DNA from: Novosphingobium sp. SG751A
Lineage (GTDB): Bacteria; Pseudomonadota; Alphaproteobacteria; Sphingomonadales; Sphingomonadaceae
NCBI RefSeq assembly: GCF_013149295.1
Contig: NZ_JABGCB010000001.1
Coordinates: 310,001 to 374,000 of the forward strand
Reading direction: 5' to 3'
Length of the DNA stretch: 64,000 nucleotides
Positions within the stretch are counted from its first letter, which is position 1. Each line of letters starts with the position of its first letter. A model generated the notes under the pieces. That model was not told the origin of the DNA. It was given only the letters and a program-made list of their open reading frames with translations, and searched no databases. Below are positions 2,136-23,700 of this stretch, one piece after another. A program made the translations under genes and the position numbers.

Positions 2136-3160
2136 GCGCCCTCCTTGCGCCGGTCGCGCGGCAGGATGGCGGGGGTGGGCCTTGCGGCATTCTCTTTTAA
2201 CCGGCGCGGCGTGGCGGCCTTGGACAGGCTGGCCAGCGCTACGAACCACGCCTTGGGCATATCGGTGGGCAGGCCGATGGGGATGCCGCTGATCTTGGGT
2301 GTGGTGGAGAAACTGTGGCCCGGATCTTCAAACCCCGGCGCGGTGCAGTTGATGCAAGGGTAGCCCCCCGAAAGGCACGATCCCGACCCGTTCCACGCCC
2401 GCGTGTTGCAATCGGCGCGCGCCTGCGTGCCCTTGCAACCAAGGTTTTCCATCATGCAGCCAAGATCGCCCAGTTCCTCGGCGCTGGCCTTGAATTCATA
2501 ATATTCATTACGGGCGCAGCCGTGGTGAACAAGGCTGGCGGTATAGGCCAAGGGGCGCTCCCATTCGTCAAGATCGGCGGCGGACAAGGTGCCGTCCGCC
2601 AGTTGCAGGATCGTATCGACAAACCAGCCCGGATGGATCGGGCAACCGGCGATATTGATGACCGGCAATCCGCCCCTTGCGCGAAACCCCGCGCCCAGCA
2701 ACCCGCCCGCCCGCGTGCCGTTATAGGCAAGGCCGCCCGCCTCCACCGCATTGCCGCCGCCCGCCGTGATCCCGCCAAACGCCGCGCAGGAGCCAACCGC
2801 TATAATATGGGTCGCATGGGCGGCAATCGCGCCGATCATGTCGCGCATCGGCCGCCCGGTGCCCGCCATCAGGTGAAAGCCGCCGGTGCCGTTCGGGCCG
2901 TGGATGACCGATCCTTCGAGGCAGAGAATATCGACCGGCTGTGTCCCGTCCGCGGCGGAATCCAATATCGCGCGCGCCTCCGCCCCGGTCGCCTCGGAGA
3001 GCGAGGGGTGCCACAAGACCTCGACATGGGCGGCGCGCAGGGCCGAGATCAGGTCCGGCTCCTGCTGGCCCAGCAAGGAGAGCGTGCAGCCCCCGCAGCC
3101 CCCCGACTGCAGCCAGATCAGGCGCAGCGGGCGTTGCGCGGTGCCGGAGGGATAGGTCAT
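2132..3160 (-). CDS. hupU: Regulatory [NiFe] hydrogenase small subunit HupU/HoxB
   Basis: Iron-sulfur small subunit, 342 residues, of the H2-sensing hydrogenase. The N-terminus (MTYPSGTAQRPL) has no Tat signal, unlike HupS, so the protein should stay in the cytoplasm. The proximal-cluster motif is GCGGCTLSLL, the ordinary CxxC form without the extra cysteines of oxygen-tolerant enzymes, followed by GSCAAFGG, AGCPIHP and C-terminal cluster cysteines in LGCKGTQARADCN and GGYPCINCTAPGF. There is no C-terminal membrane anchor. ATGA overlaps at both ends link it to hoxJ and hupV, so sensor subunits and partner kinase should be made together. Confidence 0.94.
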   Translation of the reverse strand: MTYPSGTAQRPLRLIWLQSGGCGGCTLSLLGQQEPDLISALRAAHVEVLWHPSLSEATGAEARAILDSAADGTQPVDILCLEGSVIHGPNGTGGFHLMAGTGRPMRDMIGAIAAHATHIIAVGSCAAFGGITAGGGNAVEAGGLAYNGTRAGGLLGAGFRARGGLPVINIAGCPIHPGWFVDTILQLADGTLSAADLDEWERPLAYTASLVHHGCARNEYYEFKASAEELGDLGCMMENLGCKGTQARADCNTRAWNGSGSCLSGGYPCINCTAPGFEDPGHSFSTTPKISGIPIGLPTDMPKAWFVALASLSKAATPRRLKENAARPTPAILPRDRRKEGA

Positions 3161-4212
3161 TCCTCGCCTCCTTCCGGCCCGGACAGGGGCAGGCGCAGTG
3201 TGAACACCGCCCCGCCGCCGGGCGCATCGGCATAGTCCAGCGATCCGCCCAATTTGCCCGCCATCGTATAAGAGACATAGAGGCCCAGCCCTGTGCCCGC
3301 GCCAATGGGCTTAGTGGTGAAGAAGGGTTCGAAGATCTTGTCCTGATGATCGCGCGCCACGCCCGGCCCATTGTCGGCCACGGACAGGGCAATCGTATCG
3401 CCATCCTGCGCGGCGGAAATACGGATCGCCCCGCCATCGCGGTCCCTCAGCGCATCAGCGGCATTTTGCACCAGATTGACGAGGATCTGGTGCAACTGTC
3501 CTTTGCGGCTGGAGATCTCCAGCCTTTCGGGCAGGGCGCAATCCAATTCGGGCGGATCGCGCAGCGCCTTCAAGACCCAATCCGCCGCCGTATGCACCAG
3601 CCGGACAAGGTTGAAACTCTCCAGCGGCTCGCGCTGGCTGGCGGAGAAGCGGCGCAGATCCTGCACAATGTCGCGCACCCGTTCGGCCCCCTCCAGCGTG
3701 CCATCGACCAGCGGACCGATGTCGGAGAGCACGCGGTCGATCTTGAGCTTCTCACGCAAGGCGGCAAGGTCTGCCCCGCCCCGCCCGGCATCAATCGCGG
3801 CCAGATATTGCGTAATCGCCCCTCCATAGCGTTTGAGGGCATACATATTGCCAAAAACAAAGCTGATCGGATTGTTCAGCTCATGCGCCACGCCCGCCAC
3901 CAGACGGCCAAGCGCGGCCATCTTCTCGCTGGTCAGCAATTGCTGCTGGGTCTGGCGCAATTTGCGATGCGCCGTGTCCAGTTCGGCCAGCGTGCGTTCG
4001 AGCGCGATATTGCGCTCCTCCAGCGCGGTCTGGCTGGCGACAAGGTCGGCATAGACATCATCCATCTTGCGGATGACATCGATCCACATATCCTCGCCAT
4101 TCATGCCCAGATCCGCGAGCGCGGAAAATTCCGGCATGGGGTCATGAGGGCAATCGACATGGGACGGATCGAACCGCCCATCAAACCTGTCAAAACCGCC
4201 CGCCGCCATCAT
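3157..4212 (-). CDS. hoxJ: Sensor histidine kinase HoxJ/HupT
   Basis: Kinase partner of the H2-sensing hydrogenase, 351 residues. The N-terminal region (about residues 35-60, DMWIDVIRKMDDVYADL) resembles HupT-type input regions, and residues 60-95 form a coiled coil. The H-box GVAHELNNP has His110, followed by the N-box (LVNLVQNAADAL), G1 (VADNGPGV) and G2 (GAGTGLGLYVSY), all intact. There are no membrane segments, so it is soluble like its sensor. In known HupT/HoxJ systems the kinase phosphorylates the NtrC-type regulator without H2, and the non-phosphorylated regulator is the active form. That mode is inferred here. Starts MM at 4212, overlapping the hoxA stop by 4 bases. Confidence 0.93.
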   Translation of the reverse strand: MMAAGGFDRFDGRFDPSHVDCPHDPMPEFSALADLGMNGEDMWIDVIRKMDDVYADLVASQTALEERNIALERTLAELDTAHRKLRQTQQQLLTSEKMAALGRLVAGVAHELNNPISFVFGNMYALKRYGGAITQYLAAIDAGRGGADLAALREKLKIDRVLSDIGPLVDGTLEGAERVRDIVQDLRRFSASQREPLESFNLVRLVHTAADWVLKALRDPPELDCALPERLEISSRKGQLHQILVNLVQNAADALRDRDGGAIRISAAQDGDTIALSVADNGPGVARDHQDKIFEPFFTTKPIGAGTGLGLYVSYTMAGKLGGSLDYADAPGGGAVFTLRLPLSGPEGGEE

Positions 4213-5699
4213 CGCCCCGCCACCCCACGCAACGGGTGGACATTTTCCAGCCCATAGCGTTCCAATTTCGCCCGCAGGCCCACGCGCGAGAGGCCCAATT
4301 CGCGCGCCGCCTGCGATTTGTTCCAGCGGTGGCGGATCAGCGTTTCGCGGATGATCCGCGCCTCCATCGCGCCGACCCGTTCTTTCAGATCGCCGGTCAG
4401 GTCGCCCAGATCGGGCACGGTTTCAGCCTGCGCCGTGGCCGCGCGCGCGGCGGGCGCGGCAATATGAGGCGACAGCACGTCCACCCCCAGCCAGCGCCCC
4501 TCCACCCCGCGCACCAGCATGCGCTGGATCTCGTTCTGCAACTCGCGCACATTGCCCGGCCAGCCATAGGCCGACAGGCGCGCCATCGCCTCGTCCGAAA
4601 CGCCCTGCACGCGCTTGCCCATGCTGCCCATCGCGCGGTCAAGCAAGGTCTGCACCAGCACCGGCAGATCGCCGGGGCGGTCCTTCAGATCGGGCAGGCG
4701 CACGATCATGCCCGCCAGCCGATAGAACAGATCGGCGCGGAACCGGCCCTCGCGCACTTCTTCCTCCAGATCGCGGTTAGTCGCGGCGATGATACGCACA
4801 TCGACCTTGCGCGTGCGGCCATGGCCGAGCGGGCGGATCTCGCCCTCCTGAAGCACGCGCAGCAATTTGACCTGAAAGGCGGAGCTGACCTCGCCGATCT
4901 CATCAAGAAACACCGTGCCACCATCGGCGCGCTCGAACAGGCCGGTGTGGTCGTCGATGGCACCGGTGAAGGCGCCCTTTTTATGGCCGAACAATTCGCT
5001 TTCCAGCAATTCATCGGGCAAGGCGCCGCAATTCTCCACCACGAAAGCCTTGTTCCAGCGCAGCGAGCCATAGTGCAAGGCCCGCGCCGCCAGTTCCTTG
5101 CCCGTGCCCGACGATCCGATCAGCAGCACCGGCACATCAAAAGGCGCCACCTGCGCCAGGGCGCCGCAGACATCATCCATCGGGCTGCCATGGCTGCGCA
5201 CGATGCCATCGTTGAAATCATAGGCGCGGCGCACCTGCGCCTTGCGCTTATCCACCACGGCGGCGGCGGCCTTGGGGGCCATGCGCAGCTCCACCGCCAG
5301 CAGTTCATTCTCGCGCTGAAGCTGAAACAGGCGGCAGGCCGAATGCAGCGTCAAGAGCAGGTGATCGGGGTGCCATGGCTTGGTGACATATTGGAAGATG
5401 CCCGCCTGATTGATGCCGTCGATAATGTCATGCGCATCGGCATAGCCGGAAATAATCATGCGGATCACATCGGGCCAGCGCTCCTTCACCAACGTCAGGA
5501 ATTCAACCCCGCTGCGCTCCGGCATCCGCTGGTCGCACAGGATCACCTGCACCCAATGCCGGCCCAACATCTCCTCGGCCTCACGCGTCGAGGAGGCCGT
5601 CAGGATCTCGAACTCATCCTCCAGAATGCGGCGCAGGGATTCAAGGCTGCGGATCTCGTCATCGACGATCAGGATGGTGGGCAGGGCCGATTGCGTCAT
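4209..5699 (-). CDS. hoxA: NtrC-family hydrogenase regulator HoxA/HupR
   Basis: Response regulator and sigma-54 activator, 496 residues. The receiver domain (1-125) has the acidic pair Asp13/Asp14, phospho-acceptor Asp56 and Lys107. The AAA+ domain has Walker A GSSGTGKE (Lys201), an intact GAFTGA loop (242-247) and Walker [10 protein letters not shown] (262-270). A Fis-type helix-turn-helix lies near the C-terminus ([16 protein letters not shown]). The intact GAFTGA loop means it can work with sigma-54, which fits the -24/-12 promoters before hupS and hupD. Start: ATG 5699, with GAGAG upstream; a TTG at 5717 is possible. It follows hypE after 11 bases and couples to hoxJ by ATGA. Confidence 0.94.
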
Positions 5700-5710
5700 A
5701 AACCAGCTCT

Positions 5711-6748
5711 CTAGCAAATTCTGGGCAATTGCTCACCCGCCAACCAGTCCACCACGCGCATCCCGCCAATCAGCGTTTCCATCCGCAGCAATCCGGGCGT
5801 GCCGGGCGCAGCATGAGCGCCCACCGTGCCGATTTGCGCCGCATCGCGCCCTTCGGGATGGGCGCGCATAACGGACAAAACCGCCTCGGCCTGATCCTGC
5901 GGACAGATACAGATCAGCTTGCCCTCATTGGCGATGTGGATCGGGTCCAGCCCCAGCAATTCGCAGGCCCCCGCCACTTCGGGCCGAACCGGGATCGCTG
6001 CCTCTTTCAGAACCATGCTTACCCCCGCCGCCTCGGCCAGTTCGTTGAGCGTGGCCGAAAGCCCGCCCCGCGTGGGGTCGCGCAGGCAGGCGATGGAGGG
6101 CGCCGCCGCCAGCATATCGCCCACCATCCGATGCAGCGCCGCACTGTCGCTCTCAATCGTCGTGCCAAAGGCCAACCCCTGCCGCCGGCTCAAAATCGCC
6201 ACGCCATGGTCGCCCAGCGTGCCCGACAGCAGGATCGCCATGCCCGGCGCGATGCGTTCGGGCGCGATTTCGACGCCTTCGGGGATGATGCCGATGCCGG
6301 TTGTGGTGATGAACAGACCGTCGGCGGCCCCGCGCTCAACCACCTTGGTGTCGCCTGTGACGATGGGCACGCCCGCCTTGCGCGCCGCCGCGCCCATGCT
6401 GGCGGCAATACGGTCCAGCGTTTCAAGCGGCAGCCCCTCCTCGATGATGAAAGCAGCCGACAGCGCCACCGGCACCGCGCCGCCCATGGCCACATCATTG
6501 ATCGTACCATGCACGGCCAGCGAGCCGATATCCCCGCCGGGAAATTCCAGCGGGCTGATGACATGGGCATCCGTGCTCATCACAATGCGGCCATGGGGCA
6601 GGTTTAGCCGGGCCGCGTCATGGCCCTGATCGAGGATGGGATTGGCGAAATGGCGGGCGAAGATCTCGCGGATCAGTCGCGTGGTGGCCATGCCGCCCCC
6701 GCCATGGGCCATTTCGACGGCGGCTCCGGGGCGCAGGATGCCGCTCAT
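5711..6748 (-). CDS. hypE: Hydrogenase maturation protein HypE
   Basis: HypE (345 residues) receives the carbamoyl group from HypF on its C-terminal cysteine and dehydrates it to a thiocyanate, the source of the CN ligands. The C-terminus is PRIC, so the acceptor Cys345 is present. The AIR-synthase/PurM-type ATP-binding fold is recognisable (STDAHVISPLEFPGGDIG, RDPTRGGLSATLNEL). Start: ATG 6748, whose ATGA overlaps the hypD stop. A longer frame reaches 6919, but those 57 residues lie antisense-like within hypD and are not HypE. It is the last of the hypABCDE block before the regulator genes. Confidence 0.96.
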   Translation of the reverse strand: MSGILRPGAAVEMAHGGGGMATTRLIREIFARHFANPILDQGHDAARLNLPHGRIVMSTDAHVISPLEFPGGDIGSLAVHGTINDVAMGGAVPVALSAAFIIEEGLPLETLDRIAASMGAAARKAGVPIVTGDTKVVERGAADGLFITTTGIGIIPEGVEIAPERIAPGMAILLSGTLGDHGVAILSRRQGLAFGTTIESDSAALHRMVGDMLAAAPSIACLRDPTRGGLSATLNELAEAAGVSMVLKEAAIPVRPEVAGACELLGLDPIHIANEGKLICICPQDQAEAVLSVMRAHPEGRDAAQIGTVGAHAAPGTPGLLRMETLIGGMRVVDWLAGEQLPRIC

Positions 6749-7872
6749 TGCGCAGCCTCCATTTCCGCCATCGTTTCGGCGCGGCGATAGGTGTAATAGG
6801 CCGCGCAGGAGCCTTCGGAGGAAACCATACAGGCCCCCATCGGCGTTTCGGGCGTGCAGGCCTTGCCGAACAATTTGCAATCCTTGGGGCTTTTTACGCC
6901 GCGCAGGATGGCGGGGCATTCGCAGCTTTTTACCTCACGGCTCTGCTTCTCGCTGATGGCGAAACGCGCCTCGGCGTCGAAATCGGCCAATTCGGGCCGG
7001 ATCGCGCGGGCACTGTCGGGCACGCTGCCCAAACCGCGCCACTCGAACGTATCGCGCAGGGCAAAGACCTTCTCGATCACCCCTTGCGCCTTGGTGTTGC
7101 CCGCATCCGTCACAACGCGCGAATATTGGTTCTCGACCTCACACCGCCCCTCATTCACCTGACGGATCAGCATCAGCACCGATTGCAGCACATCGAGCGG
7201 CTCAAACCCGGCGATCACCAGCGGCCGCCCATAATGCGCCACCAAGGGGCGATAGGCCGCAGCGCCAATCACCGTCGAAACATGGCTCGGCCCAAGGAAA
7301 CCATCCAGCGCGATACCCGGCGCGGCCAGCACATGCTCCATCGCGGGCGGGGTCAGCACATGGTTGCAGAACACGCTGAAATTGGTCAGCCCCTGCGCCC
7401 GCGCAGTCAGGATGGCCATGCCGGTGGCGGGCGTGGTGGTTTCAAAACCAATCCCCATAAACACCACCTGCCGATCCGGATTGTCCCGCGCCAGCGCCAG
7501 CGCATCGAGCGGCGAATAGACCATGCGAATATCGGCCCCCGCGCCCCGCGCCGTCAGCATCGATCGCCGCCCGCTGCCCGGCACGCGCATCATGTCGCCA
7601 TAAGTGGCCAGAATGACGCCATGCCGCTCGGCCAGTTCGAGCGCATCGTCCAGGCGCCGCATCGGCAGCACGCAGACGGGGCACCCCGGCCCATGCACAA
7701 AGCGCACATTGGAAGGCACGAGATCCTGCACCCCATAGCGGAAGATCGCATGGGTATGCCCGCCGCAGAACTCCATGAAAGCATAGGAGCGCGCCGGATC
7801 GACCTCGCGCGCAATCGCCGTGGCAAGGCTTTGCGCCAGCGCCGGATCGCGAAATTCGGAGACATATTTCAT
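6745..7872 (-). CDS. hypD: Hydrogenase maturation protein HypD
   Basis: HypD (375 residues) forms with HypC the scaffold on which Fe(CN)2CO is assembled. Conserved cysteines are visible: Cys36 in EFCGGHTHAIF, Cys64 and Cys67 in GPGCPVC, and a C-terminal [4Fe-4S]-binding group (KSCECPAILRG, DCKLFGKAC, GACMVSSEGSC). Length is normal. Start: ATG 7872, overlapping the hypC stop by 4 bases; five extra upstream residues are possible but would lose this coupling. Confidence 0.96.
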   Translation of the reverse strand: MKYVSEFRDPALAQSLATAIAREVDPARSYAFMEFCGGHTHAIFRYGVQDLVPSNVRFVHGPGCPVCVLPMRRLDDALELAERHGVILATYGDMMRVPGSGRRSMLTARGAGADIRMVYSPLDALALARDNPDRQVVFMGIGFETTTPATGMAILTARAQGLTNFSVFCNHVLTPPAMEHVLAAPGIALDGFLGPSHVSTVIGAAAYRPLVAHYGRPLVIAGFEPLDVLQSVLMLIRQVNEGRCEVENQYSRVVTDAGNTKAQGVIEKVFALRDTFEWRGLGSVPDSARAIRPELADFDAEARFAISEKQSREVKSCECPAILRGVKSPKDCKLFGKACTPETPMGACMVSSEGSCAAYYTYRRAETMAEMEAAQ

Positions 7873-8111
7873 GCGCCCGCCCCCCATTCTTCCTCGACCA
7901 GTCCGGCCTCGGCCATCATTTTCAGCGTGGCCTCGGCTTCCTCCGGGCTGATCTTGTGCAGCGCATAGCCAACATGGAGCAGCACATAATCGCCCAGCGC
8001 CGCATCATCGACCAGCGCGACCGAAACGATGCGCGTCACACCTCCGGCGCTGACCGTGGCCATGCCATCGGGCAGGATTTCCACCACCTGCGCGGGGATC
8101 GCAAGGCACAT
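7869..8111 (-). CDS. hypC: Hydrogenase maturation chaperone HypC
   Basis: Small chaperone (80 residues) that carries the Fe(CN)2CO unit with HypD and delivers it to the large-subunit precursor. It begins MCLAIPAQ with the essential Cys2 and has the conserved His46 in LLHVGYAL. Four bases separate it from the hypB stop. The paralogue HupF (12054-12365) starts MCVGLPMR and presumably serves the export-type HupL. Confidence 0.96.
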   Translation of the reverse strand: MCLAIPAQVVEILPDGMATVSAGGVTRIVSVALVDDAALGDYVLLHVGYALHKISPEEAEATLKMMAEAGLVEEEWGAGA

Positions 8112-8115
8112 GCGA

Positions 8116-9003
8116 TCAGCCCTCCACCACAGGGCGCGAGGCCAGAGCCATCGCCCGCGCGGCCCGCAGCCAGTCGAGCCACTGCCCCATCCCCTCGCCG
8201 CTGCGTGCGGAAACGCGGATCAGGCGGACGCGCGGATTGACGCGGCGGGCGTTGGCCATCGCAAGGTCAATGTCGAAATCCAGATGCGGCAAAAGATCGA
8301 CCTTGTTGACCAGCACCAGATCGGCGCTGGCGAACATATCGGGATATTTGAGCGGCTTGTCCTCGCCCTCGGTCACCGACAGGATCGCCACCCGCGCGCC
8401 CTCGCCCAGATCAAAGGCGGCGGGACACACCAGATTGCCGACATTCTCGATGAACAGCACGCTGCCCTGCGCGGGCGAAAGGTGATCCACCGCATGGCCC
8501 ACCATATGGCCGTCGAGATGGCATCCCTTGCCGGTGTTGATCTGGATCGCGGGAGCGCCGGTGGCGCGGATGCGGTCGGCGTCGGCGCTGGTCTGCTGAT
8601 CGCCCTCGATCACGGCCACGGGAAATTCGCCCGCGATCTCGCTGAGCGTGCGGCACAGCAAGGTGGTCTTGCCCGATCCGGGCGAAGACACCAGATTGAG
8701 CGCCAGAATGCCCGCCGCCGTAAAGCGATCCCGGTTGGCGGCGGCATAGCGGGCGTTCTTGCCCATAATGTCGGCCTCCAACTGGATCAGACGGGTCTGA
8801 CTCATGCCCGGAACGGAAACGCCCGCCGGGCCGTGGCCATAGTGCAGATCCTCACCATGATGGTGGTGGTCATGCTCATGATCGTGGTGATGGTGATGAT
8901 GATGATGATGATGATCATGGTCATGCTCATGGTCGTGCCCGTGATGATGATGCCCGCCTTCCAGCTTGGCCCCGCCGTCGCTGCATCCGCAAACCGTGCA
9001 CAT
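8116..9003 (-). CDS. hypB: Nickel-inserting GTPase HypB with polyhistidine stretch
   Basis: HypB (295 residues) inserts nickel with HypA and uses GTP. It begins MCTVCGC, the N-terminal CxxCGC nickel site. Residues about 18-60 contain around two dozen histidines, including a run of ten, mixed with Asp/Glu. Such regions bind several Ni ions and can store nickel (rhizobial HypB is the known case). The SIMIBI GTPase domain follows with P-loop [17 protein letters not shown], and NKVDLL as the base-recognition motif. The ATG at 9003 overlaps the hypA stop by one base; a longer frame upstream lies inside hypA. The histidine run shows on the DNA as a near-tandem ATG/CAT tract at about 8,870-8,950. 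Confidence 0.96.
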
Positions 9004-9344
9004 TACAAAACCTCCAATTCGCGGATGGTCATGTCTTCGCCACCCGTCACCTGCAATTGATAGGACCCGCATTGCGGGCAGGCATCATAGCGCGCGGCAA
9101 TCGCCACATTGGCCGCGCAAGGCATACACCACGCGCGGGCCGCCACATCCTCGATTTCCAGCCGCGCGCCCTCGGCCACGCTTCCGCGCATCACCACATC
9201 GAAACCGAAGCGCAGCGCCTCCGGTTCGACGCCCGAAAGCGCGCCGATGGCCAGTTTAACCCGTTCGACGCGGGCGAAACCGGCGGACCGGGCCTGTTCT
9301 TCCAAAATCTGGCGGATGGATTCGCAAATCGCCATTTCATGCAT
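9003..9344 (-). CDS. hypA: Nickel metallochaperone HypA
   Basis: HypA (113 residues) hands nickel to the large subunit with HypB. It starts MHEMAICES, with the N-terminal Met-His-Glu nickel site intact (His2). The zinc site has two CxxC pairs, CMPC and CPQC. The ATG at 9344 shares a base with the hupK stop (TGATG). A longer frame reaching 9530 is mostly inside hupK and is not HypA-like. Confidence 0.96.
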
Positions 9345-10060
9345 CAGGCCGTCTCCATCGCCGCATCCATCGCCCAATCCACACAGGGGTCGATGGCCTG
9401 CATCGCCCATGCCGCATCCTCGGCCCGATGGCATTGCGCCAAAAGCGCGACCGCATCGCCATCCGGGCCGAACCGGCGCGCGGTGGGCGCATCGATGGTG
9501 TATGCCCGCACCCGCCCCTTGTGAAGCCACACGCGATGAATCAGCCGCCCCCTTGCACAGGTCAGCCCGGCCACGCCCATGTCGGGTTCAGGGGAATGCA
9601 TGTCGGGCGCGACCGGCGCGCCGTTCAAACGCGCGGCAAAGATCGGGCGCAACGCCTCGGGCGCATGGGCCAGCACTCTTGCAGCCAATCCAGATGCCTC
9701 CACACCGCGCCAGTCGCCCGCGATAATCTCGCGTGCCAGCCCGGTCTGAGGCGCCTCGCCAATCAGCGCGGGCCAGTCGAGGCACAGGCGCAGGCCCGTC
9801 TCGCGCCGCGCCTCGGTATGGACGCGGGCGATGCGCTGGCTGAGATAATCCGGTGCAATTGCTTCCCCCATCGCCGCCGCCACGACCATTTCGCCCGCCA
9901 GCCCTTGTGCTTCGCGGCAAATCCCGTGCAGGCGCCGCAGGGCCTGCCCCACCTTGATGGCGGGCAGGCCGATCAGCAGGTCCTGCGCATTGGGGATCGC
10001 GCAACGGGCGATCCGGCCCCCGGCGGGCGTCATGGCGATGCGGATGGCCGGGCCGGTCAC
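9344..10060 (-). CDS. hupK: Hydrogenase assembly scaffold HupK/HoxV
   Basis: HupK/HoxV (238 residues) is a degenerate relative of hydrogenase large subunits thought to act as an intermediate scaffold for the Fe(CN)2CO unit. The L1-like motif is LHGICREAQ, where only the second cysteine of the usual RxCGxC pair remains. A C-terminal DPCVDW keeps one L2 cysteine. This matches the family and indicates a scaffold rather than an enzyme. It overlaps the hupJ stop by 4 bases and hypA by 1. Confidence 0.88.
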   Translation of the reverse strand: MTGPAIRIAMTPAGGRIARCAIPNAQDLLIGLPAIKVGQALRRLHGICREAQGLAGEMVVAAAMGEAIAPDYLSQRIARVHTEARRETGLRLCLDWPALIGEAPQTGLAREIIAGDWRGVEASGLAARVLAHAPEALRPIFAARLNGAPVAPDMHSPEPDMGVAGLTCARGRLIHRVWLHKGRVRAYTIDAPTARRFGPDGDAVALLAQCHRAEDAAWAMQAIDPCVDWAMDAAMETA

Positions 10061-10539
10061 GCCGCATCCTCACAAGGCAGCCGGAACAGGGCGCGGCGGC
10101 TGAGCGCGGGTCTGAGCTCCGGCTCCGGCGCCTGAGGCTCGGTCATGATTTCGGCCATGGCGGCATCTCCCGTGGCGGTGGCCGCCTCCATGGTTTCAAA
10201 TTCAAACATGGGCGAAAACAACGAGATTGCCCAATAGAAGCCCAAAGCCTCCTCATACCCCCGGATCGCCTCATAGGCGCCCGACGGCAGAGCTATGTGG
10301 CGCTTTTCCCCCACGCGGGCGGGGGCCTCATCATCCGGGCCGAAAGCCAGCACATTCATAAACCAAGGCGTGATCAGCACGCCCATGCGCCAGCCATCAC
10401 GCTCGCACGCCCCGCGCATCGCCACGCCCAGCGCAGTGTTCATCACCGGCACACCCGCCATGCGCGTCTGCGCAATATCGGCAAACACCGCCTCGACCCG
10501 CGCCGCCCACGTCTTTGGCCGTGACTGGCTCTCGCTCAT
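10057..10539 (-). CDS. hupJ: Hydrogenase accessory protein HupJ/HoxT
   Basis: HupJ family protein of 160 residues, found only in operons for exported uptake hydrogenases. Its precise function is not established; rhizobial hupGHIJ products help the small subunit mature, especially with oxygen present. I see no catalytic motif. Visible blocks are GMRVC-like start MSESQSRPKTWAARVEAVF and LLITPWFMNVLAFGPD-like text, typical of the family. Start: ATG 10539 with ATGA overlap on hupI; a longer frame upstream lies within hupI. Confidence 0.88.
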   Translation of the reverse strand: MSESQSRPKTWAARVEAVFADIAQTRMAGVPVMNTALGVAMRGACERDGWRMGVLITPWFMNVLAFGPDDEAPARVGEKRHIALPSGAYEAIRGYEEALGFYWAISLFSPMFEFETMEAATATGDAAMAEIMTEPQAPEPELRPALSRRALFRLPCEDAA

Positions 10540-10757
10540 TCCACCACCATAAAGCCCGCCTTGGGCGCATCGCATTGCGGGCATGTCCAATGGTCGGGCA
10601 GATCGGCAAAGGGCGTGCCGGGGGCCACCTGCCAATAGGTGCAGCCATCGGCGGGGTCATAGATGTGCCAGCAGATCTTGCATTCCAGCTTTGTCTGCGG
10701 CCCGATCTTGCCCACATCCCCGCCAAAGGAGCCTTCGAAGAAATGCGGATCGCTCAC
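10536..10757 (-). CDS. hupI: Rubredoxin-like protein HupI/HoxR
   Basis: Rubredoxin of 73 residues with two iron-binding pairs, CKIC (in ECKICWHIYDP) and CPQC (in HWTCPQCDAPK). HupI/HoxR-type rubredoxins help make the small-subunit clusters of hydrogenases working in oxygen. I choose a GTG start at 10757, giving MSDPHFFEG and overlapping the hupH stop as GTGA, like the other 4-base junctions here. The longer frame to 10901 would run deep into hupH. Confidence 0.92.
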   Translation of the reverse strand: MSDPHFFEGSFGGDVGKIGPQTKLECKICWHIYDPADGCTYWQVAPGTPFADLPDHWTCPQCDAPKAGFMVVE

Positions 10758-11599
10758 CGATAGGTGTCCATGATCTCGGCCAACCGCTCGGCGCTGTCGG
10801 CAATATCCTCGGGCGCGGCCTGCGCCACGGCGGGCAGAGGGCTGATCTCGATCGTGTTGAGGATCAGCGTGTCCTGCGAATTGAAATAGCGCACCCACCA
10901 ATTATGCCGCGTCCCCGTGCTGCGGATCCGGCAATTGCCATAGCCGCGCGAGAGGATGATGAGATCGCCCTTGCCCAGCGCTTCTTCAAGAAACAGCAGG
11001 TCGCCCTCGGTATGGGGCAGCAGCGAGAGGTTGATGACATGCGGCTCGGCCCGCGTGGCAGTGCCGGGGATATGGGCGTTGATCTCGGCGATCAGCGCGG
11101 GGGCGTTGAACAGGCCGTCGAAACTCTTTTCCGGGATGGTCACCTCGCCCTGCGCCCGGCCAAAGGCGGCGGCGATAAAGCCTGCCGGAAAGGCGCCTAT
11201 GTCTACCCGGTCACCGCGCCGTTCGCCCGTTTGCCGCACGCGCCACACGCCCGCCAGCACCGATTCCTGCGCCTGATGGCTTTCGCCCAGCACGACCGAA
11301 ACCTCACCCTCGCCCAGCAATTGATCGACAAAGGCAAGATCGGCCGGGGCCAGATGGGCCAGATCGACGCTTTCCTCCGGCCCGCCCGCCGCCACGCGGT
11401 TCAGGGCAGCCAGGATCGCCTCGCCCGCCGCCACGCCCGCGCCATGGTCGGCTGCATCGGCGGGAATGCTGGCCATCGAGAACACCCGCATCTCCTCGGG
11501 CATGATCATGTAATCGAGCTTCGCATCGTCCGGGCCGTCGGGCTGGCTGCCGGGGCCGACAAGAGCGCTGAGCAGAGTTTCGATGTCCGGGTTCATCAT
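10754..11599 (-). CDS. hupH: Hydrogenase expression/formation protein HupH/HoxQ
   Basis: HupH/HoxQ/HyaF family protein, 281 residues. The family acts with HupG as a chaperone of the hydrogenase small subunit and its Tat signal; the exact mechanism is not settled. Characteristic stretches include a C-terminal block ending ILNTIEISPLPAV, before which SRGYGNCRIRSTG and NWWVRYFNSQDTLI are visible. Starts MMN at 11599, overlapping the hupG stop by 4 bases. Confidence 0.92.
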   Translation of the reverse strand: MMNPDIETLLSALVGPGSQPDGPDDAKLDYMIMPEEMRVFSMASIPADAADHGAGVAAGEAILAALNRVAAGGPEESVDLAHLAPADLAFVDQLLGEGEVSVVLGESHQAQESVLAGVWRVRQTGERRGDRVDIGAFPAGFIAAAFGRAQGEVTIPEKSFDGLFNAPALIAEINAHIPGTATRAEPHVINLSLLPHTEGDLLFLEEALGKGDLIILSRGYGNCRIRSTGTRHNWWVRYFNSQDTLILNTIEISPLPAVAQAAPEDIADSAERLAEIMDTYR

Positions 11600-12057
11600 G
11601 CGTCTCCATTGGGCGTAGCGCAGCCCGAAGGCATACGAAAGGATGGCGGATCGGACGGTTCGCGGCCCAGCATGTCGGGCAATTCATTCATATATTCGGA
11701 CCAGTCGCGGATGCCCTCCATCGCGCCCAGATATTGCCCTTCGCGCAGGAAGATCAGCGCCGGAAAGGAGGCGAAGCGAAACCGGCGCTGCATCGCGCGC
11801 TCGGCATCGCGCGCGGCCACCAAAACGCCGACATGCCCGCCCAGCGCCTTGTCCAGTTCGGGCACCACCACGGCCAGATCATCGCATTCGGCCAGACGCC
11901 ACCAATCCCCCGCCACCAGCAGCATGGAGAGCGGATGGGACGCGGCGATGGCCTCGAAATCCTCCTCACCCACCACGGCGTAATGATGGCGCGCGATGAT
12001 CGAGGCAAGCAGCGGCGAATGGGCCGAGCGGTCGAGTTCGGGGGAAAGGTCGCTCAA
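11596..12057 (-). CDS. hupG: Thioredoxin-fold hydrogenase chaperone HupG/HoxO/HyaE
   Basis: HupG/HyaE family, 153 residues: a thioredoxin fold without the CxxC active site, binding the Tat signal of the small subunit until clusters are in place. The expected spot reads LLVAGDWWRLAECDD, confirming loss of the redox motif, and the cis-proline segment RFRFASFPALIFLREGQYLG is of the thioredoxin type. ATGA overlaps on both sides (hupF upstream, hupH downstream). Confidence 0.9.
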   Translation of the reverse strand: MSDLSPELDRSAHSPLLASIIARHHYAVVGEEDFEAIAASHPLSMLLVAGDWWRLAECDDLAVVVPELDKALGGHVGVLVAARDAERAMQRRFRFASFPALIFLREGQYLGAMEGIRDWSEYMNELPDMLGREPSDPPSFRMPSGCATPNGDA

Positions 12058-12365
12058 GGGCGGTACTCCGGCATAAGGTGGTCTGGCAATTGCGGTTCGC
12101 GCGCAATCAGATCGGCAAAGGCGGCGTCCAGATCGACAGGCTCGCCGCGCATCAGGGCCGCCAGCGCATCGGTGGCGGCCAGCGTTTGCAGCGCGGTTTC
12201 CTCATCCATCTTTTCGCGCGCGGCGCCAAGGAAGGTCATCAGCCATTCGCCCGGCGCGCATTCGCCCACCAGCGCGGTGTCGATGGAATGGAGCGCCCCG
12301 TCGTGATGGCACAGCGCAAAACCCGCGCCATTTTCCACCACACGCATCGGAAGGCCGACGCACAT
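12054..12365 (-). CDS. hupF: HypC-family chaperone HupF
   Basis: HupF (103 residues) is a HypC paralogue with a longer C-terminus, specific to exported uptake hydrogenases; in rhizobia it protects HupL under oxygen. It keeps the essential Cys2 (MCVGLPMRV). The ATG at 12365 shares a base with the hupD stop (TAATG). Having both HypC and HupF fits a system that must make an oxygen-exposed enzyme and a separate sensor enzyme. Confidence 0.93.
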   Translation of the reverse strand: MCVGLPMRVVENGAGFALCHHDGALHSIDTALVGECAPGEWLMTFLGAAREKMDEETALQTLAATDALAALMRGEPVDLDAAFADLIAREPQLPDHLMPEYRP

Positions 12366-13069
12366 TACAGCGCAACTTTCAGATTGGGTCCGCCAAGGAT
12401 CGACTGGATTTCGGCCTCATGATCCTCCGGCCCGGCAGGCCCGGCCCAGCCATCGGCCAGCACGCGCGCGTCGCCATGGCGGGGGGCGTCATCGGCATCG
12501 GGGCGGGCGGCCTCATAATGCTCCATCAGCATCTCAAGGCTGCCGATCCCCTGCTCGGGCGAGAGCGGCGTGGCGCGGCGCGTGGCATGCACCCCGCGCG
12601 CGGCCAGCCATTGGAGCGCCACAGCAATCGCCGGTTCCATCTGCGCCTTGACGCTTTCGCGCAGAGAGCCGCCGAAATCCTCCAGTTCTTCGGGCTGAAC
12701 CCCCACCAGCAGGATTTCGGATGGCGGCTCGCCCATCATCTCGGCCATGGCCAGCACTTCCTGAAAGCCGGTCTGGTGGAGCGAGATCTTTTTCGCGCCA
12801 AGGAAGCTTGGCACTTCCTCGCCCTCAACCACTTTCATCGTGGCGGGGGGCAAGCCGTAATCCACCGCATCGAACACCACCAAGAGGTCAGCCTCGCGGA
12901 TGTCCTGCACCAGATAGATGCCCTGCGTTCCGCCATCCATAAGCCGCACCTGGTCGGGAAAGGACCAGTGGCGATGGAGATGCTCGACCGCGCGCACGCC
13001 AAAGCCTTCGTCGGCCCACAACAGATTGCCAATGCCCAGAATGAGCGTGTTGAGCTTTTGCCCGTTCAT
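12365..13069 (-). CDS. hupD: HupL C-terminal processing endopeptidase HupD
   Basis: Nickel-dependent protease (234 residues) that cuts the C-terminal extension from HupL after metal insertion. The three nickel-sensing residues of the HybD family are present: Glu21 (LWADEG), Asp67 (VVFDAVD) and His98 (SLHQTGF). At 234 residues it is longer than typical (about 160-200); the extra part is a charged C-terminal tail. HupV has no extension, so HupL is the only substrate seen here. Start: ATG 13069 with a strong GGGGAG ribosome site 8-9 bases upstream. First gene of the second hup operon, about 50 bases after a -24/-12 promoter. Confidence 0.94.
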   Translation of the reverse strand: MNGQKLNTLILGIGNLLWADEGFGVRAVEHLHRHWSFPDQVRLMDGGTQGIYLVQDIREADLLVVFDAVDYGLPPATMKVVEGEEVPSFLGAKKISLHQTGFQEVLAMAEMMGEPPSEILLVGVQPEELEDFGGSLRESVKAQMEPAIAVALQWLAARGVHATRRATPLSPEQGIGSLEMLMEHYEAARPDADDAPRHGDARVLADGWAGPAGPEDHEAEIQSILGGPNLKVAL

Positions 13070-13120
13070 TGATTGCTCCCCACCATCTCTTGCAAATGGC
13101 TTCGCTATGGAAAGATGGAT

Positions 13121-13136
13121 AGCAAGCGCTGTGCCA
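13121..13136 (-). promoter_or_regulatory. Sigma-54 promoter P2 (before hupD)
   Basis: On the minus strand the sequence is TGGCACAGCGCTTGCT: TGGCAC and TTGCT with GG and GC exactly 10 bases apart, matching the sigma-54 consensus in full. The predicted start lies near 13110, giving a leader of about 40 bases to hupD. It differs at one position from the promoter before hupS, so HoxA with sigma-54 probably drives hupD through hypF from here. Confidence 0.85.
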
Positions 13137-13213
13137 GTTCCTGCCAAAGCGTGAAGATACGGGCCATATGGGTTAGGGGTGAGGCCGGGCCTGAAGAGTT
13201 AAATGCAAACTAT

Positions 13214-13254
13214 CTTTCCACTATGGAAAGGCAACATGGACACTAGATTTCCAT
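13214..13254. promoter_or_regulatory. Probable HoxA upstream activator site for P2
   Basis: A perfect 17-bp inverted repeat CTTTCCACTATGGAAAG (13214-13230) is followed by a second, looser one, ATGGA...TCCAT (13236-13254). Together they give three TTTCCA half sites and one TGGACA, about 80-130 bp upstream of the P2 -24/-12 element, the usual place for an NtrC-type activator. The word CTTTCCACT recurs before hupS. The binding protein is inferred. Confidence 0.6.
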
Positions 13255-13256
13255 GC

Positions 13257-13285
13257 AAAAAAGGGGAGCGGTTTCCCACTCCCCT
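13257..13285 (-). terminator. Intrinsic terminator after hupC
   Basis: On the minus strand GGGGAG-N10-CTCCCC is followed by six T's. It lies 25 bases past the hupC stop and upstream of P2, so the structural genes hupSLEC and the accessory genes are two transcription units. Confidence 0.8.
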
Positions 13286-13309
13286 CTCCTTCACACGTGG
13301 CAAAACCGA

Positions 13310-14047
13310 TCAGGTGTCGCGGTCAATCGGTTTGGCATCGCGGAAATTGCGCCAGCCCGAAATCATCGAGGAAATGATCGACTGGCGCGACATGATATCC
13401 TCACGCACGGCGGCATAGATATGGACGATCACAAAGATCACCATCGCCCACATCGCCAGATGATGCCAGGTATGCACCGTCTGCGAATTGCCGCCAAAGA
13501 GCCACAGGACCGGGCCGGTAAAGACCGTGTGGATCCACCCCGGTCCCTCGCCCTCGCCGTAAAGGGCAAAGCCGGTGACGATCATGAACAGGCCCACCCA
13601 AACGAACAGGACATGCATCGAAACCATTGCCAGCGGATTATGGCCGACATATTTGCGCGGATGTTCCTCGATCATCGCATACCAGCGCATTTCGTGCAGC
13701 ACGCCTTTCCAAAAGCCGATATGCCAGAAAGGCGGGCGGAAGATCTCGCGCGCATGATGGTTGCCGACAAAGCTCCAGTAAAAACGCAGGACAAAGCCTA
13801 CCGCCATGATCTGCCCCGAGGCGAAATGCAGAAAGCGGACCCAGCCGAAGAAGTAATGGCTGGAGGCCTCGCCCATCAGCGTGAAGGGCGGCGAGCCGAT
13901 CAGATAGCCGGTGACGAAAAGCACCGTGACGGCAAGCGCATTGATCCAGTGCCAGATGCGCACCGGCGCTTCATAGACATAGACTGCCGGTTCTACGGTT
14001 AATGGCGGTTCGCTGGATAATGGTTCTTCTATGGGGGTGCTGGCCAT
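13310..14047 (-). CDS. hupC: Hydrogenase cytochrome b subunit HupC/HoxZ
   Basis: Di-haem b-type cytochrome (245 residues) that anchors HupSL to the periplasmic face of the inner membrane and passes electrons from H2 to quinone. Four hydrophobic segments are visible, starting about residues 32-50, 66-92, 140-165 and 195-217. Candidate haem ligands include His33 (RIWHWINAL), His74 (VRFLHFASG) and the late HTWHHLAMW and FVIVHIYAA segments. Fourteen bases separate it from hupE, and it is the last gene before the terminator. Confidence 0.95.
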   Translation of the reverse strand: MASTPIEEPLSSEPPLTVEPAVYVYEAPVRIWHWINALAVTVLFVTGYLIGSPPFTLMGEASSHYFFGWVRFLHFASGQIMAVGFVLRFYWSFVGNHHAREIFRPPFWHIGFWKGVLHEMRWYAMIEEHPRKYVGHNPLAMVSMHVLFVWVGLFMIVTGFALYGEGEGPGWIHTVFTGPVLWLFGGNSQTVHTWHHLAMWAMVIFVIVHIYAAVREDIMSRQSIISSMISGWRNFRDAKPIDRDT

Positions 14048-14061
14048 GGCGCCCTCCCCCT

Positions 14062-14628
14062 TTATGCGGCAAGCAGCGCAAGGCCGGTGGCGCCAAGCGC
14101 GAGGCCCGCCGCCAGCCGACCTTGCGACCGTGAGAAGATCATCCGGCCGATGCGATAGCCCACGCTATGCAGCAGCGACGAAGAGAGCAGGAAGCCGCCG
14201 AAATAGGCCGCCAGATTGCCGCCGGCCTCCGCGCCATGGGCCAGCCCATGCACCGCGCCAGCCGCCACGATCAACCCCAGCCCAAGGCCCGAGGAAAGCC
14301 GGGTGGCCAGCACCAGCAAAGCGCCCAACACCAGCACCGAGCCCGCCACCATCGGCTCGACCATAGGCAATGCGCCCGTCATCAACCCGGCCGCGGCGCC
14401 CGCCGCCAATGCGCCCATGAAGGCCGCCGGAGCGATCATCGCCTGACGCGCAGGCCGCGTGGCCGCCCACAGGCCTACCGCCACCATCGCGGCCAGATGG
14501 TCCACGCCGGAGAAGGGATGCGCCAGCCCCGCCATCACCGATCCATCATGGCCCGGATGCGCCATCGCGGGCATGGCCGTTGCCGCAAGGACAGAGGCGG
14601 CCAGAACAGTTTTACCAATCGCTTTCAT
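14062..14628 (-). CDS. hupE: HupE/UreJ-family nickel permease
   Basis: Nickel transporter of 188 residues. It has a cleavable signal (about residues 1-24, ending AMPAMA), then HPGHDGS, and the HupE signature HPFSGVDHLAAMVAVGLWA, with later histidines in GAVHGLAHGAEAGG; about six membrane segments follow. HupE proteins bring in Ni by diffusion for hydrogenase synthesis. Start: ATG 14628 with GGGAGAGG upstream. Position between hupL and hupC is unusual; rhizobial clusters place hupE after hupD. Confidence 0.93.
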   Translation of the reverse strand: MKAIGKTVLAASVLAATAMPAMAHPGHDGSVMAGLAHPFSGVDHLAAMVAVGLWAATRPARQAMIAPAAFMGALAAGAAAGLMTGALPMVEPMVAGSVLVLGALLVLATRLSSGLGLGLIVAAGAVHGLAHGAEAGGNLAAYFGGFLLSSSLLHSVGYRIGRMIFSRSQGRLAAGLALGATGLALLAA

Positions 14629-14640
14629 CAAACCTCTCCC

Positions 14641-16440
14641 TTACCGTACCTTGACCTGCGCCATTTCCTGCCCATCGGGCCCCATCACATGGGTCGAACA
14701 GGCAAGGCAGGGATCGAAACTGTGCAGCGTGCGCAGGATTTCCACCGGTTCCTCGGCACGCTCGACCTTGGTGTTCATCAGGCTGGCCTCAAAGGCGCCG
14801 ATGTTGCCCTGATTGTCGCGAGGACTGCCGTTCCAAGTGGTGGGCACGACGCATTGGTAATTGTCGATCTTACCGTCCTTGATGCGGATCCAATGGCCCA
14901 GCGCCCCGCGCGGCGCCTCGGTAAAGCCTACGCCCTTGACCTCGGAGGGCCAGGTCTTGGGGTCGAATTTGGCGGTGTTGGCGGTAGCGGTGTCGCCCGC
15001 CTTGATATTGGCGATCAGCTTGTCGAGGAAATACTTCTGCTTGCGCGCAGCCCACTGCGCCTCCAGCCCGCGCGCGGCGGTGCGGCCCAGCGTCGAGAAC
15101 AGGGCGTCCATCGGCACGTCCAGCGTTTTCAGCGCCCAGTCGACCTGCTCCTTGATCTCCTTGTTGCCCTGCATATAGCCGATGACATAGCGGGCCAGCG
15201 GCCCCACCTCCATCGCATGGCCGCGCCAGCGCGGAGCCTTGATCCAGCTGTATTTGGCGCTTTCGTCGATTTCCTCGATGCGGGTGCTGGTGCCCTTGGC
15301 GCCCTTGCCCAGCTCATAATGCGGTTCGGTCACGCCGTCCCACGGGTGCAGGCCCTTGCTCTCATCCTCATATTTGTACCACGAATGGGGCACAAATTCC
15401 TGCACCTGCGTCAGGTCGGCCAGATCGACCGGGTGAACCTCATTCAGCTTGCCGTTGATGATCGCCCCGCGCGGCATCAGCAGGTTGGCGGGGCTGTAAT
15501 CATTGGCCTTGTCGGGAATGTCGCCATAGGCCAGCAGCGATTTGTTCGACAGGCCGCCGCCATAGAGCCAGCCCTTGTAGAATGAGGCAATCGCCATCAG
15601 GTCGGGAATATAGACATTCTCGACGAACTCGATGCAGCGCTGGGTGATGTCGGCCACGTAATTGAGGCTCGCCATGTTGATCGGCGCGCCCGCGGCCATA
15701 TCGCCGTCGATGTTGATCGCGCAGGGAACGCCCCCGACCAGCCAGTTGGGGTGAATATCCTTGCCGCCAAAGATCGTGCGCACGCGCATGATTTCCTTCT
15801 GGAAATCCAGCGCCTCAAGGTAATGCGTCACCGCCATCAGATCAGCTTCGGGCGGCAATTTATAGGCCGGGTTGGTCCAGTAGCCATTCTTGAACGGCCC
15901 CAATTGCCCGCTCTCGACAAATTTGCGCAGGCGCGTCTGCACATCGCGGAAATAGCCGGGCGAGGAATTGGGGTGGCTGGGCGAGACCTTCTGCTGCAGC
16001 TCGCTGGTGGCCTTGGGGTCGGCCTTCAGCGCATTAACCGGATTGACCCAATCGAGCGCGTGCAGATGGTAGAAATGCACCAGATGGTCATGCACCTGGA
16101 GCGACAATTGCATGATGTTGCGGATCGAATTGGCGTTTTCGGGAATGTCGATCCCCAGCGCGTTTTCCACCGCGCGCACGCTGGTCAACGCATGGGTGCC
16201 GGTGCAGACGCCGCAGATGCGCTGGACAAAGGCCCATGCATCGCGCGGGTCGCGGCCTTTCAGGATCACTTCCAATCCGCGCCACATCGTGCCGGTGGAA
16301 ACGGCGTTGCGGATCACATTGTTGGCATCGAGATTGACCTCGCAGCGCATATGCCCTTCGATGCGGGTGACGGGATCGACGACAACGCGCTTGCCACTGC
16401 TGTCGAGGTTAAAGCCATTGGGCGTGGCGATCGTGGCCAT
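14641..16440 (-). CDS. hupL: Uptake [NiFe] hydrogenase large subunit HupL/HoxG
   Basis: Catalytic large subunit, 599 residues, of the membrane-bound uptake hydrogenase. Nickel ligands: L1 [11 protein letters not shown] (Cys76, Cys79) and L2 DPCLACSTH (Cys578, Cys581). After His584 comes a 15-residue extension, [15 protein letters not shown], to be cut by HupD. It has no signal and crosses the membrane folded with HupS. The ATG at 16440 shares one base with the hupS stop (TGATG), fixing equal translation. Length and motifs fit group 1 enzymes; HupS features point to the oxygen-tolerant 1d group. Confidence 0.98.
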
Positions 16441-17564
16441 CAGTCCTGTCCCTCAAGTTCGTTGCTTTTGCTTTCCGGGCTTTTGGTGTCTTCGCCCGTC
16501 TTCTGGCGCGCGCGCTTCACCGCGCTGGCGGCGGCATGGGCGGCTGCCGCAATGCCCACAACGCCCGCAGCCGTCCCGCCGATCTGGTCGGCATTGGCCT
16601 CGATGCCAAAGCCCTTGATGTCGGTCAGGCGTTCATAGAACGAACCCTTGTCCCAGAAGCCATCCTCCGAACAGCCGATGCAGGGGTGGCCGGCCTGAAT
16701 GGGGAAGGACAGGCCGCCGTTCCATCGCACCGTCGAACAGGCGTTATAGGTAGTCGGGCCTTTGCAACCGACCTTGTAGAGGCAATAGCCCTTGCGCGCG
16801 CCCTCATCGTCGAATTTCTCGACAAATTGCCCGGCGTCGAAATGCGGGCGGCGATAGCATTTGTCGTGAATGCGCTGCGAATAGAACATCTTGGGGCGGC
16901 CCTGAAGGTCCAGCTCCGGGAAACGTTCAAAGGTCAGGATATAGGCGATCACCGCGGTCATCACCTCGGCAATCGGCGGGCAACCGGGCACCTTGATGAT
17001 GGGCTTTGCAGGCAGACCGGGCACCTTATGCACCGGGGTCGCCTGCGTGGGATTGGGCCGCGCGGCCTGAACGCAGCCCCAGCTTGCGCAAGATCCCCAA
17101 GAGATGATCGCCTTGCAGTGATCGGCGGCCTCTTTCAACTGCTCAAGGAACGGACGCCCGCCGATGATGCAGCTCATCCCTTCCTGATTGAGCGGCGGAT
17201 TGCCCTCGACCGCCAGGATGAAATTGCCATCATATTTCTTGATGGTCTCCTGAATGATCGCCTCGGCCTGATGCCCGGCGGCGGCCATGATCGTGTCGTC
17301 ATAATCAAGGCTGATCATCGAAAGGATCACGTCCTTGGCCAGCGGATGGCCCGAACGAATGAAGCTTTCCGAACAACAGGTGCATTCCAGCCCATGCAGC
17401 CACAGCACAGGGATGCGCGGCTTGGTTTCCATCGCGGTCTGGATCTGGGCGGCGGCGGCGGGCGGCAGGCCCAATGCGGCGGCGGTCAGGCTGCAAAACT
17501 TGGTAAAGCTGCGCCTTGTGATGCCCTGACGGCGCATCACATCGTAAAATGTCTCGGTGGCCAT
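16440..17564 (-). CDS. hupS: Uptake [NiFe] hydrogenase small subunit HupS/HoxK, Tat-exported, six-Cys proximal cluster
   Basis: Small subunit (374 residues) carrying three iron-sulfur clusters. A Tat signal (RRSFTKF, residues 17-23) precedes the mature part, which begins about residue 45. Proximal-cluster cysteines are Cys61, Cys63, Cys64, Cys159, Cys164 and Cys195. The CTCC motif and the CASWGC spacing supply the two extra cysteines of the [4Fe-3S] cluster known from oxygen-tolerant enzymes. Distal and medial cluster ligands lie in [21 protein letters not shown] and [13 protein letters not shown]-terminal hydrophobic helix ([20 protein letters not shown]) is the membrane anchor. Start: ATG 17564 with GGGGAA upstream; longer frames to 17858 run through the promoter. 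Confidence 0.97.
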
Positions 17565-17632
17565 GCGTGTTCTTCCCCGGACGTTTCCCCTTGACGGGGA
17601 TTTGCGTGTTAAGATTTCAGCGGGGGTTGTTA

Positions 17633-17648
17633 AGCAAGGCCTGTGCCA
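17633..17648 (-). promoter_or_regulatory. Sigma-54 promoter P1 (before hupS)
   Basis: On the minus strand the sequence is TGGCACAGGCCTTGCT, with GG and GC 10 bases apart: a full sigma-54 -24/-12 match. The expected start is near 17622, a leader of about 58 bases to hupS. HoxA in this cluster has the intact GAFTGA loop required to activate it. Confidence 0.87.
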
Positions 17649-17704
17649 GATACGGATACTGGCGGGAAAGTTGGAATATCCCCGACAGGCGAACCAATCT
17701 GGAT

Positions 17705-17751
17705 GGCAAGTTGCCTTCCACTTATGCCCGCCCGCTTTCCACTTGTGATGG
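17705..17751. promoter_or_regulatory. Probable HoxA upstream activator sites for P1
   Basis: Two direct copies, CCTTCCACTTATG (17714-17726) and CTTTCCACTTGTG (17735-17747), are 21 bp apart, two helical turns, so they would face the same side of the DNA. They are preceded by a perfect 11-bp palindrome GGCAAGTTGCC (17705-17715). They sit about 70-100 bp upstream of P1 and share TTCCACT with the P2 site. They also lie close upstream of the divergent plus-strand gene. Confidence 0.55.
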
Positions 17752-17789
17752 GCCACCCGCCATGGGGCAATATGTCCTGAAACGAGCGG

Positions 17790-18218: not shown

Positions 18219-18296
18219 ACCGGCGCTTCTTGCCGGAATGACGCCATGGCGCGCCTTTGGCCGCGCCCTTCTGCGCCTGCCTGTTTCGGGGGTTTT

Positions 18297-20525: not shown

Positions 20526-20582
20526 CGCCTTCGCAGTTTGCCCCCTTGTTCCCCCGGCGCGGCCCGGCCATAGGCTGGGCCC

Positions 20583-21527: not shown

Positions 21528-21529
21528 TT

Positions 21530-22060: not shown

Positions 22061-22065
22061 GCAAA

Positions 22066-22098: not shown

Positions 22099-22108
22099 CA
22101 TCAGGGAA

Positions 22109-23119: not shown

Positions 23120-23121
23120 AC

Positions 23122-23685: not shown

Positions 23686-23700
23686 GGGGTTTGACCTTCG

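Follow-up and report, generated by a model that had tools for sequence, protein, structure and literature searches.

Is the uptake hydrogenase island of Novosphingobium sp. SG751A read as one unit or as two, and if as two, do both answer to the same activator? The question arises in a 64,000-nt stretch of this genome (GCF_013149295.1, contig NZ_JABGCB010000001.1, forward positions 310,001 to 374,000; hereafter the window). Its minus strand carries, in order, hupS, hupL, hupE, hupC, hupD, hupF/hypC, hupG, hupH, a rubredoxin gene, hupJ, a hupK-like frame, hypA, hypB, hypC, hypD, hypE, hoxA, hupT, hupU and hupV, with a sequence resembling a sigma-54 promoter (a -24/-12 box) before hupS and another before hupD. 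A first-pass annotation of the window had proposed that these near-identical boxes split the island into two operons set by one activator. Our analysis favors, with a probability of about 0.85, two sigma-54-dependent operons activated by HoxA, an NtrC-family regulator, with H2 sensed via HupUV and HupT.

Two conserved -24/-12 boxes and a terminator

The two boxes are identical at 14 of 16 bases and differ at positions 9 and 10 (GC at hupS, CG at hupD). The annotation had placed them correctly, on the minus strand and with GG-N10-GC in both, but had counted 15 of 16 bases alike. Within the window, the exact pattern TGGCAC-N5-TTGCW occurs at these two boxes only. The annotation had raised the question of copies elsewhere, and these do exist, ten in total in the 5.73-Mb genome (about 0.1 per 64 kb). 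The others lie 51 bp before a PII-like gene that has an ammonium-transporter-like frame next to it, 25 bp before a fliK-like frame on a contig with two more copies, 179 bp before nifH (genome C25:44610-45616), 82 bp before a nifB-like frame, within and opposite a fixC-like frame, and within a cydC-like frame; these frames were named by reading, and the copies within the fixC-like and cydC-like frames are perhaps due to chance. Given nifH with an exact sigma-54 box upstream, the organism probably fixes nitrogen. Sigma-54 itself is encoded by rpoN (PF04552, E 5.3e-66).

Weak matches to the pattern carry little meaning. With up to two mismatches the window holds 35 relative to 42 expected, showing no excess, and with up to one mismatch the whole genome holds 158 relative to 115 in a reversed control. 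The case that the boxes exceed chance is made from their conservation in relatives. Sigma-70 promoters were dropped as candidates, five promoter-like sites being found in 8000-27000 compared to 4.3 expected.

Relatives were taken from a HupL search, of which the best 80 of 591 gave a set of 80 regions (79 relatives and the window); hupS is missing from the available stretch in one relative and hupD in 12. A box was scored when 9 or more of 11 consensus bases, with the GG and GC required, lay within 260 nt upstream of the start. With the window counted, 69 of 80 regions had a box ahead of hupS and 39 of 69 had one ahead of hupD, compared to 3.1% and 4.4%, respectively, in dinucleotide shuffles and to 20 of 810 coding windows scored as a control. 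Among the 68 cases having both genes, a gap of 200 bp or more between hupC and hupD went with a hupD box in 32 of 39, and a shorter gap with one in 4 of 27, all four inside hupC and three of these without TTGC. The hupD box was also present in both regions with an inverted hupD unit (L043 and L110). In N. nitrogenifigens (L033) hupC and hupD stand 2 kb apart, separated by a 515-codon membrane-protein-like frame, and the box has been kept by hupD. The annotation's reading of the boxes as promoters is supported by this recurrence of GG-N10-GC at a conserved distance before the same hydrogenase genes.

An intrinsic terminator had also been proposed to close hupSLEC ahead of the second promoter, and a hairpin with a T run does lie between the end of hupC (13310) and the hupD promoter (Table 1). 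None of 200 shuffles was as good. A generic terminator scan did not list this hairpin, probably because the T run is taken up into the stem there. Of the 37 relatives in which 200-800 bp separate hupC from hupD, 24 had terminator-like hairpins in that interval, where 0.2 were expected.

A shared palindrome that tracks HoxA

Both promoters are preceded by a 17-bp palindrome (TGGAA-N7-TTCCA) that emerged from a de novo dyad search. The dyad TGGA-N8-TTCC occurred in the upstream 180 nt of 35 of 100 non-redundant boxes, relative to a maximum of 8 in 15 shuffled sets. Matches to at least 8 of 10 bases of the palindrome were present at 39 of 69 hupS promoters (4.5 expected) and 34 of 39 hupD promoters (2.4 expected). 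The shuffles behind the dyad search and these counts, like those for the relatives' hairpins, preserve base composition only. Palindrome centres cluster near -73 and -104 at hupD and near -63, -84 and -106 at hupS, and 19 of 35 pairs within one promoter are spaced 31-33 bp. The positions are periodic at about 10.75 bp, a periodicity driven by a few preferred positions and equalled in strength by none of 5000 uniform random sets.

Positions in the window were ranked with a matrix built from 49 sites, none of them from a sphingomonad locus, and scored at 63,982 positions; the predicted HoxA operators are listed in Table 1. The exact operator was found at three places genome-wide, none of them at hup, where the window copies match 9 of 10 bases. 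The reversed control gave ten, and because the genome count falls below it we claim no further HoxA targets. The fifth-ranking site in the window (13107-13125, score 13.5), a half-good palindrome overlapping the -12 end of the hupD box, is possibly a low-affinity site. We treated another match (19797-19815, score 14.5) as chance; it falls within a TonB-receptor-like frame.

HoxA was surveyed in 73 of the 80 loci (L032, L092, L098, L099, L102, L103 and L105 were left out), and one genome with a truncated HoxA (L067) was kept outside the comparison. For cross-validation of the palindrome scores, we removed the locus under test together with promoters 45% or more alike, but no entire clades. Among the resulting 72 genomes, the palindrome was present in 44 of 49 with HoxA or HupR and in 3 of 23 without. 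The 43 genomes in which the regulator has the GAFTGA loop had the palindrome in 39, the hupS box in 42 and the hupD box in 30 of 31 where the layout allows one. Six genomes, all labelled Rhodobacteraceae, Octadecabacter or Albidovulum, have an altered or deleted loop; the palindrome was present in five, the hupS box in one (score 9, doubtful) and the hupD box in none of four. Plasmid records of Fuscovulum (GMLPGG) and Paracoccus (GAVAGG) likewise had good hupD palindromes and no box. The helix core SRVGLR was kept in every HoxA or HupR alignment of the survey reaching that region. These patterns suggest that the palindrome follows the DNA-binding domain and the box follows the sigma-54 contact loop. 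In the window, hoxA encodes an intact GAFTGA and lies beside hupT and hupUV. That the predicted palindrome is shared by both promoters and tracks HoxA across genomes speaks for the annotation's idea that a single activator would serve the two.

The 23 genomes in which HoxA was not found included three with the palindrome, 19 with a hupS box (mostly methanotrophs) and, at hupD, a box in three of five; the hupS boxes there presumably use another activator. The three palindromes, in two Mesorhizobium (L045, L048) and a Devosia metagenome-assembled genome (L054), where a relaxed search gave matches of only 29-50% identity, are possibly relics or the result of assembly gaps. Methanotroph relatives share a very uniform hupS box, CGGCAT-N3-TGTTGCT (L071, L076, L078, L081, L084, L085, L093, L097, L098, L102, L105 and L108), mostly with neither HoxA nor the palindrome, and these boxes are likely served by another activator.

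A sample of the class added a few genomes. Eleven of 385 had hupD, and besides G000 we used G423, G430, G563, G659 and G740; five weaker matches (L140-L144) went through the motif scan only and were not counted. The three with HoxA (G423, G563 and G659) had boxes at both genes and hupD palindromes, with a hupS palindrome that was good in two and weak in G423. The two in which HoxA was not found (G430 and G740) had neither box nor palindrome at hupS or hupD.

A predicted HoxA circuit and its alternatives

In the circuit that we propose, HupUV would sense H2 and, through HupT, set the state of HoxA. HoxA would bind the palindromes that precede each box by about 60-110 bp, and contact through its GAFTGA loop would enable sigma-54 polymerase to open both promoters. 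Operon 1 (hupSLEC) would make the enzyme and stop at the terminator, while operon 2 (hupD to hupV, probably to hypF) would make the maturation proteins along with HoxA, HupT and HupUV. Because hoxA, hupT, hupU and hupV sit in the hupD operon, HoxA would raise its own level and the circuit would be self-amplifying. The presence of rpoN, GAFTGA, conserved boxes, the terminator and the predicted shared palindrome is what would be expected of two operons co-regulated by HoxA and sigma-54, as the first-pass annotation had suggested. Its description of the second unit as maturation and sensor genes was right but incomplete, since the regulator belongs there as well and, probably, hypF past the window edge.

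Several observations weigh against this circuit. The hupS promoter has one good palindrome only, and the copies at both promoters fall short of the consensus. No basal promoter for hoxA was found, though the circuit needs a basal source of HoxA, and a search limited to the strict IHF consensus WATCAANNNNTTR found no site at either promoter. The palindrome was weak or missing in four genomes with a GAFTGA HoxA (L063, L066, L068 and L087). Among plasmid records with such a HoxA the best scores were weak in Acidovorax (-1.6), Paraburkholderia (5.6) and pHG1 of C. necator (8.2 at hoxK, 8.4 at hoxF); the score was 12.3 in Variovorax, and two Azospirillum records reached 11.6 and 13.6. No box by our criterion was found at hupD in Afipia OM5 or in Pseudovibrio (L051), both of which have a GAFTGA HoxA and hupD palindromes. 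Finally, the counted genomes are related, so that Fisher values for the co-occurrence overstate the support.

The activator might instead be NifA, acting on two genuine sigma-54 promoters and tying the hydrogenase to nitrogen fixation, as at P1 of R. leguminosarum, where hupSL is NifA-dependent (PMC3534401). The genome offers some encouragement for this in the boxed nifH and in a NifA-like regulator with GAFTGA (named by reading) on the same contig. Yet TGT-N10-ACA, the NifA motif, is upstream of neither promoter, the conserved palindrome tracks HoxA, and HoxA is intact in Novosphingobium sp. SG751A. We consider control mainly by NifA improbable.

It is less probable still, to the point of being hard to sustain, that only the hupS box works and that transcripts of the maturation genes start at hupS and pass the terminator, or start at another promoter. 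Terminators can leak, and the 27 relatives with closely spaced hupC and hupD include only the four with a scored box, all within hupC. But the hupD box and its palindromes are conserved as well as those at hupS, they stay by hupD despite the insertion of about 2 kb in L033 or the inversion in L043 and L110, and the z score of the terminator (-4.24) also argues against this reading. A chance likeness of the two boxes, for which one could cite the ordinary frequency of weak matches, is contradicted already by conservation, exact boxes being found at orthologous places across orders and lost together with GAFTGA; we regard it as next to impossible. Activation of both operons by HoxA stands as the favored reading.

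Known systems, wider meaning and neighboring genes

HoxA activates hydrogenase operons through sigma-54 in C. necator H16 (PMC10073562, PMC4974937). Plasmid pHG1 of that strain has the same cluster order as the window, with hoxA and the sensor genes after the maturation genes, and its activator is the one compared in Table 1. Unlike the window, its PMBH and PSH serve two different hydrogenases, no box was found before hoxM, the hupD homologue, and the palindrome at the known HoxA promoters of pHG1 is weak only. The published PSH (PMC4974937) corresponds to the box at pHG1 hoxF, and the two weak dyads there are separated by 32 bp, a spacing that fits.

HoxA-controlled hup genes have been described in Bradyrhizobium japonicum (van Soom 1997, cited in PMC10073562). 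In R. leguminosarum, P3 is an internal promoter that precedes hupG and serves accessory genes (PMC3126725). R. leguminosarum Norway (L127) resembles the window in having a second exact box with strong palindromes internal to the cluster, but that box precedes hupG, not hupD. Since hoxA is fragmented in this strain, its palindromes may be relics. B. guangxiense (L126) also differs from the window in that its second exact box, with palindromes, precedes hupG. In both genomes hupC and hupD abut. In work attributed to Martinez (2004), P3 is said to be a -24/-12 promoter activated by NifA.

The R. capsulatus HupR/HupT/HupUV system has the same sensor logic, with unphosphorylated HupR activating when H2 is present (PMC5133592); HupR there has lost the sigma-54 interaction and depends on sigma-70 (PMC3162934). 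HupR of related bacteria keeps the recognition helix, and the palindrome is present in 5 of 6 genomes, but the boxes are lost. The window, with GAFTGA and the -24/-12 boxes, does not fit this type.

Hydrogenase promoters of the HoxA/sigma-54 type, and an internal promoter in a hup cluster (P3), were thus known already. What is new is that the second promoter commonly sits at hupD among these relatives and has palindromes and a terminator to itself, and that the palindrome can be put forward as a candidate operator for the whole family, open to testing. No text describing a TGGAA-N7-TTCCA operator was found in the literature, most subscription papers being outside reach; HupR motifs have been predicted in Acidithiobacillia (PMC12194929, in a figure), and these possibly overlap with this operator. 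On balance we lean toward a broader reading, in which paired TGGAA-N7-TTCCA about three helical turns apart would be the HoxA/HupR-family operator in Alphaproteobacteria and some Gammaproteobacteria and would mark a split, autoregulated two-operon regulon. In Rhodobacteraceae this regulon would have come off sigma-54 through joint loss of GAFTGA and the boxes, with the operators and the recognition helix retained, and rhizobia with a broken or missing HoxA would keep relic operators. The Afipia OM5 result and the possible overlap with PMC12194929 led us to lower the probability of this broader reading slightly.

The layout of two apparent sigma-54 promoters with the same predicted sites is common to many related bacteria. 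If the proposal is correct, a widespread uptake hydrogenase would be controlled by a unit of one regulator, one operator and two promoters. The genes that sense H2 would belong to the operon they act on, so that hydrogen could set off expression that amplifies itself. HoxA/HupR targets could then be read from genomes via the operator, and Rhodobacteraceae would be a natural experiment on an activator leaving sigma-54.

For the genes in Table 1, hypA, hypE, the rubredoxin and the hupK-like frame (which had no Pfam match) were named by reading, and hoxA, hupT, hupU and hupV by position and similarity.

Table 1. Positions in the window of the predicted regulatory elements and hydrogenase genes
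Feature	Position	Strand	Remarks
hupS-promoter -24/-12 box TGGCACAGGCCTTGCT	17633..17648	-	84 nt before hupS start; GG-N10-GC
hupD-promoter -24/-12 box TGGCACAGCGCTTGCT	13121..13136	-	67 nt before hupD start; GG-N10-GC
Predicted HoxA operator, hupS promoter, 17-bp core TGGAAGGCAACTTGCCA	17703..17721	.	centre 64 bp upstream of box; 9/10 consensus bases; rank 2 of 63,982
Possible degenerate second operator, hupS promoter	17724..17742	.	centre -85; score 4.4, weak
Predicted HoxA operator, hupD promoter, core TGGAAAGATAGTTTGCA	13203..13221	.	centre -76; rank 1 of 63,982
Second predicted HoxA operator, hupD promoter, core TGGAAATCTAGTGTCCA	13236..13254	.	centre -109; 33 bp from first; rank 3 of 63,982
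Intrinsic terminator hairpin after hupC, then T run	13262..13285	-	10 pairs; -20.2 kcal/mol; z -4.24
hupS, hydrogenase small subunit	16440..17564	-	TIGR00391 above cut-off
hupL, hydrogenase large subunit	14641..16440	-	best NCBIfam match PRK10170, E 1.8e-268, under that equivalog's cut-off
hupE	14062..14631	-	PF04955
hupC, b-type cytochrome	13310..14047	-	TIGR02125 above cut-off
hupD, maturation endopeptidase, first gene of second operon	12365..13069	-	TIGR00140 above cut-off
hupF/hypC, hupG, hupH, rubredoxin, hupJ, hupK-like, hypA, hypB, hypC, hypD, hypE	5711..12365	-	profile matches; co-directional, almost abutting
hoxA, NtrC-family activator	4209..5702	-	GAFTGA and helix SRVGLRAKL; 50.9% identity to C. 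necator H16 pHG1 activator
hupT-like histidine kinase	3157..4212	-	general histidine-kinase matches; name by position
hupU and hupV, predicted H2-sensing hydrogenase	666..3160	-	NiFe-hydrogenase matches under enzyme-family cut-offs; names by position beside hoxA and hupT

Just past the window edge lie a hypF-like frame (by reading), probably part of the second operon, and then, at the cluster end, a DUF3422 gene (PF11902; L112:7191-8426, genome C1:307191-308426). An annotated DUF3422 gene directly precedes hupU in B. guangxiense (L126:380-1696). This gene may be part of the hydrogenase function.

The island (666-17564) has likely spread horizontally, as hupD was present in 2 of 397 genomes of the family, one being that of the window, and HupL among the best 80 relatives is as close in Nitrospirillum (89-90% identity) as in other Novosphingobium. 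The second of these family genomes (G178) has the same coordinates as the L037 genome and is not independent of it.

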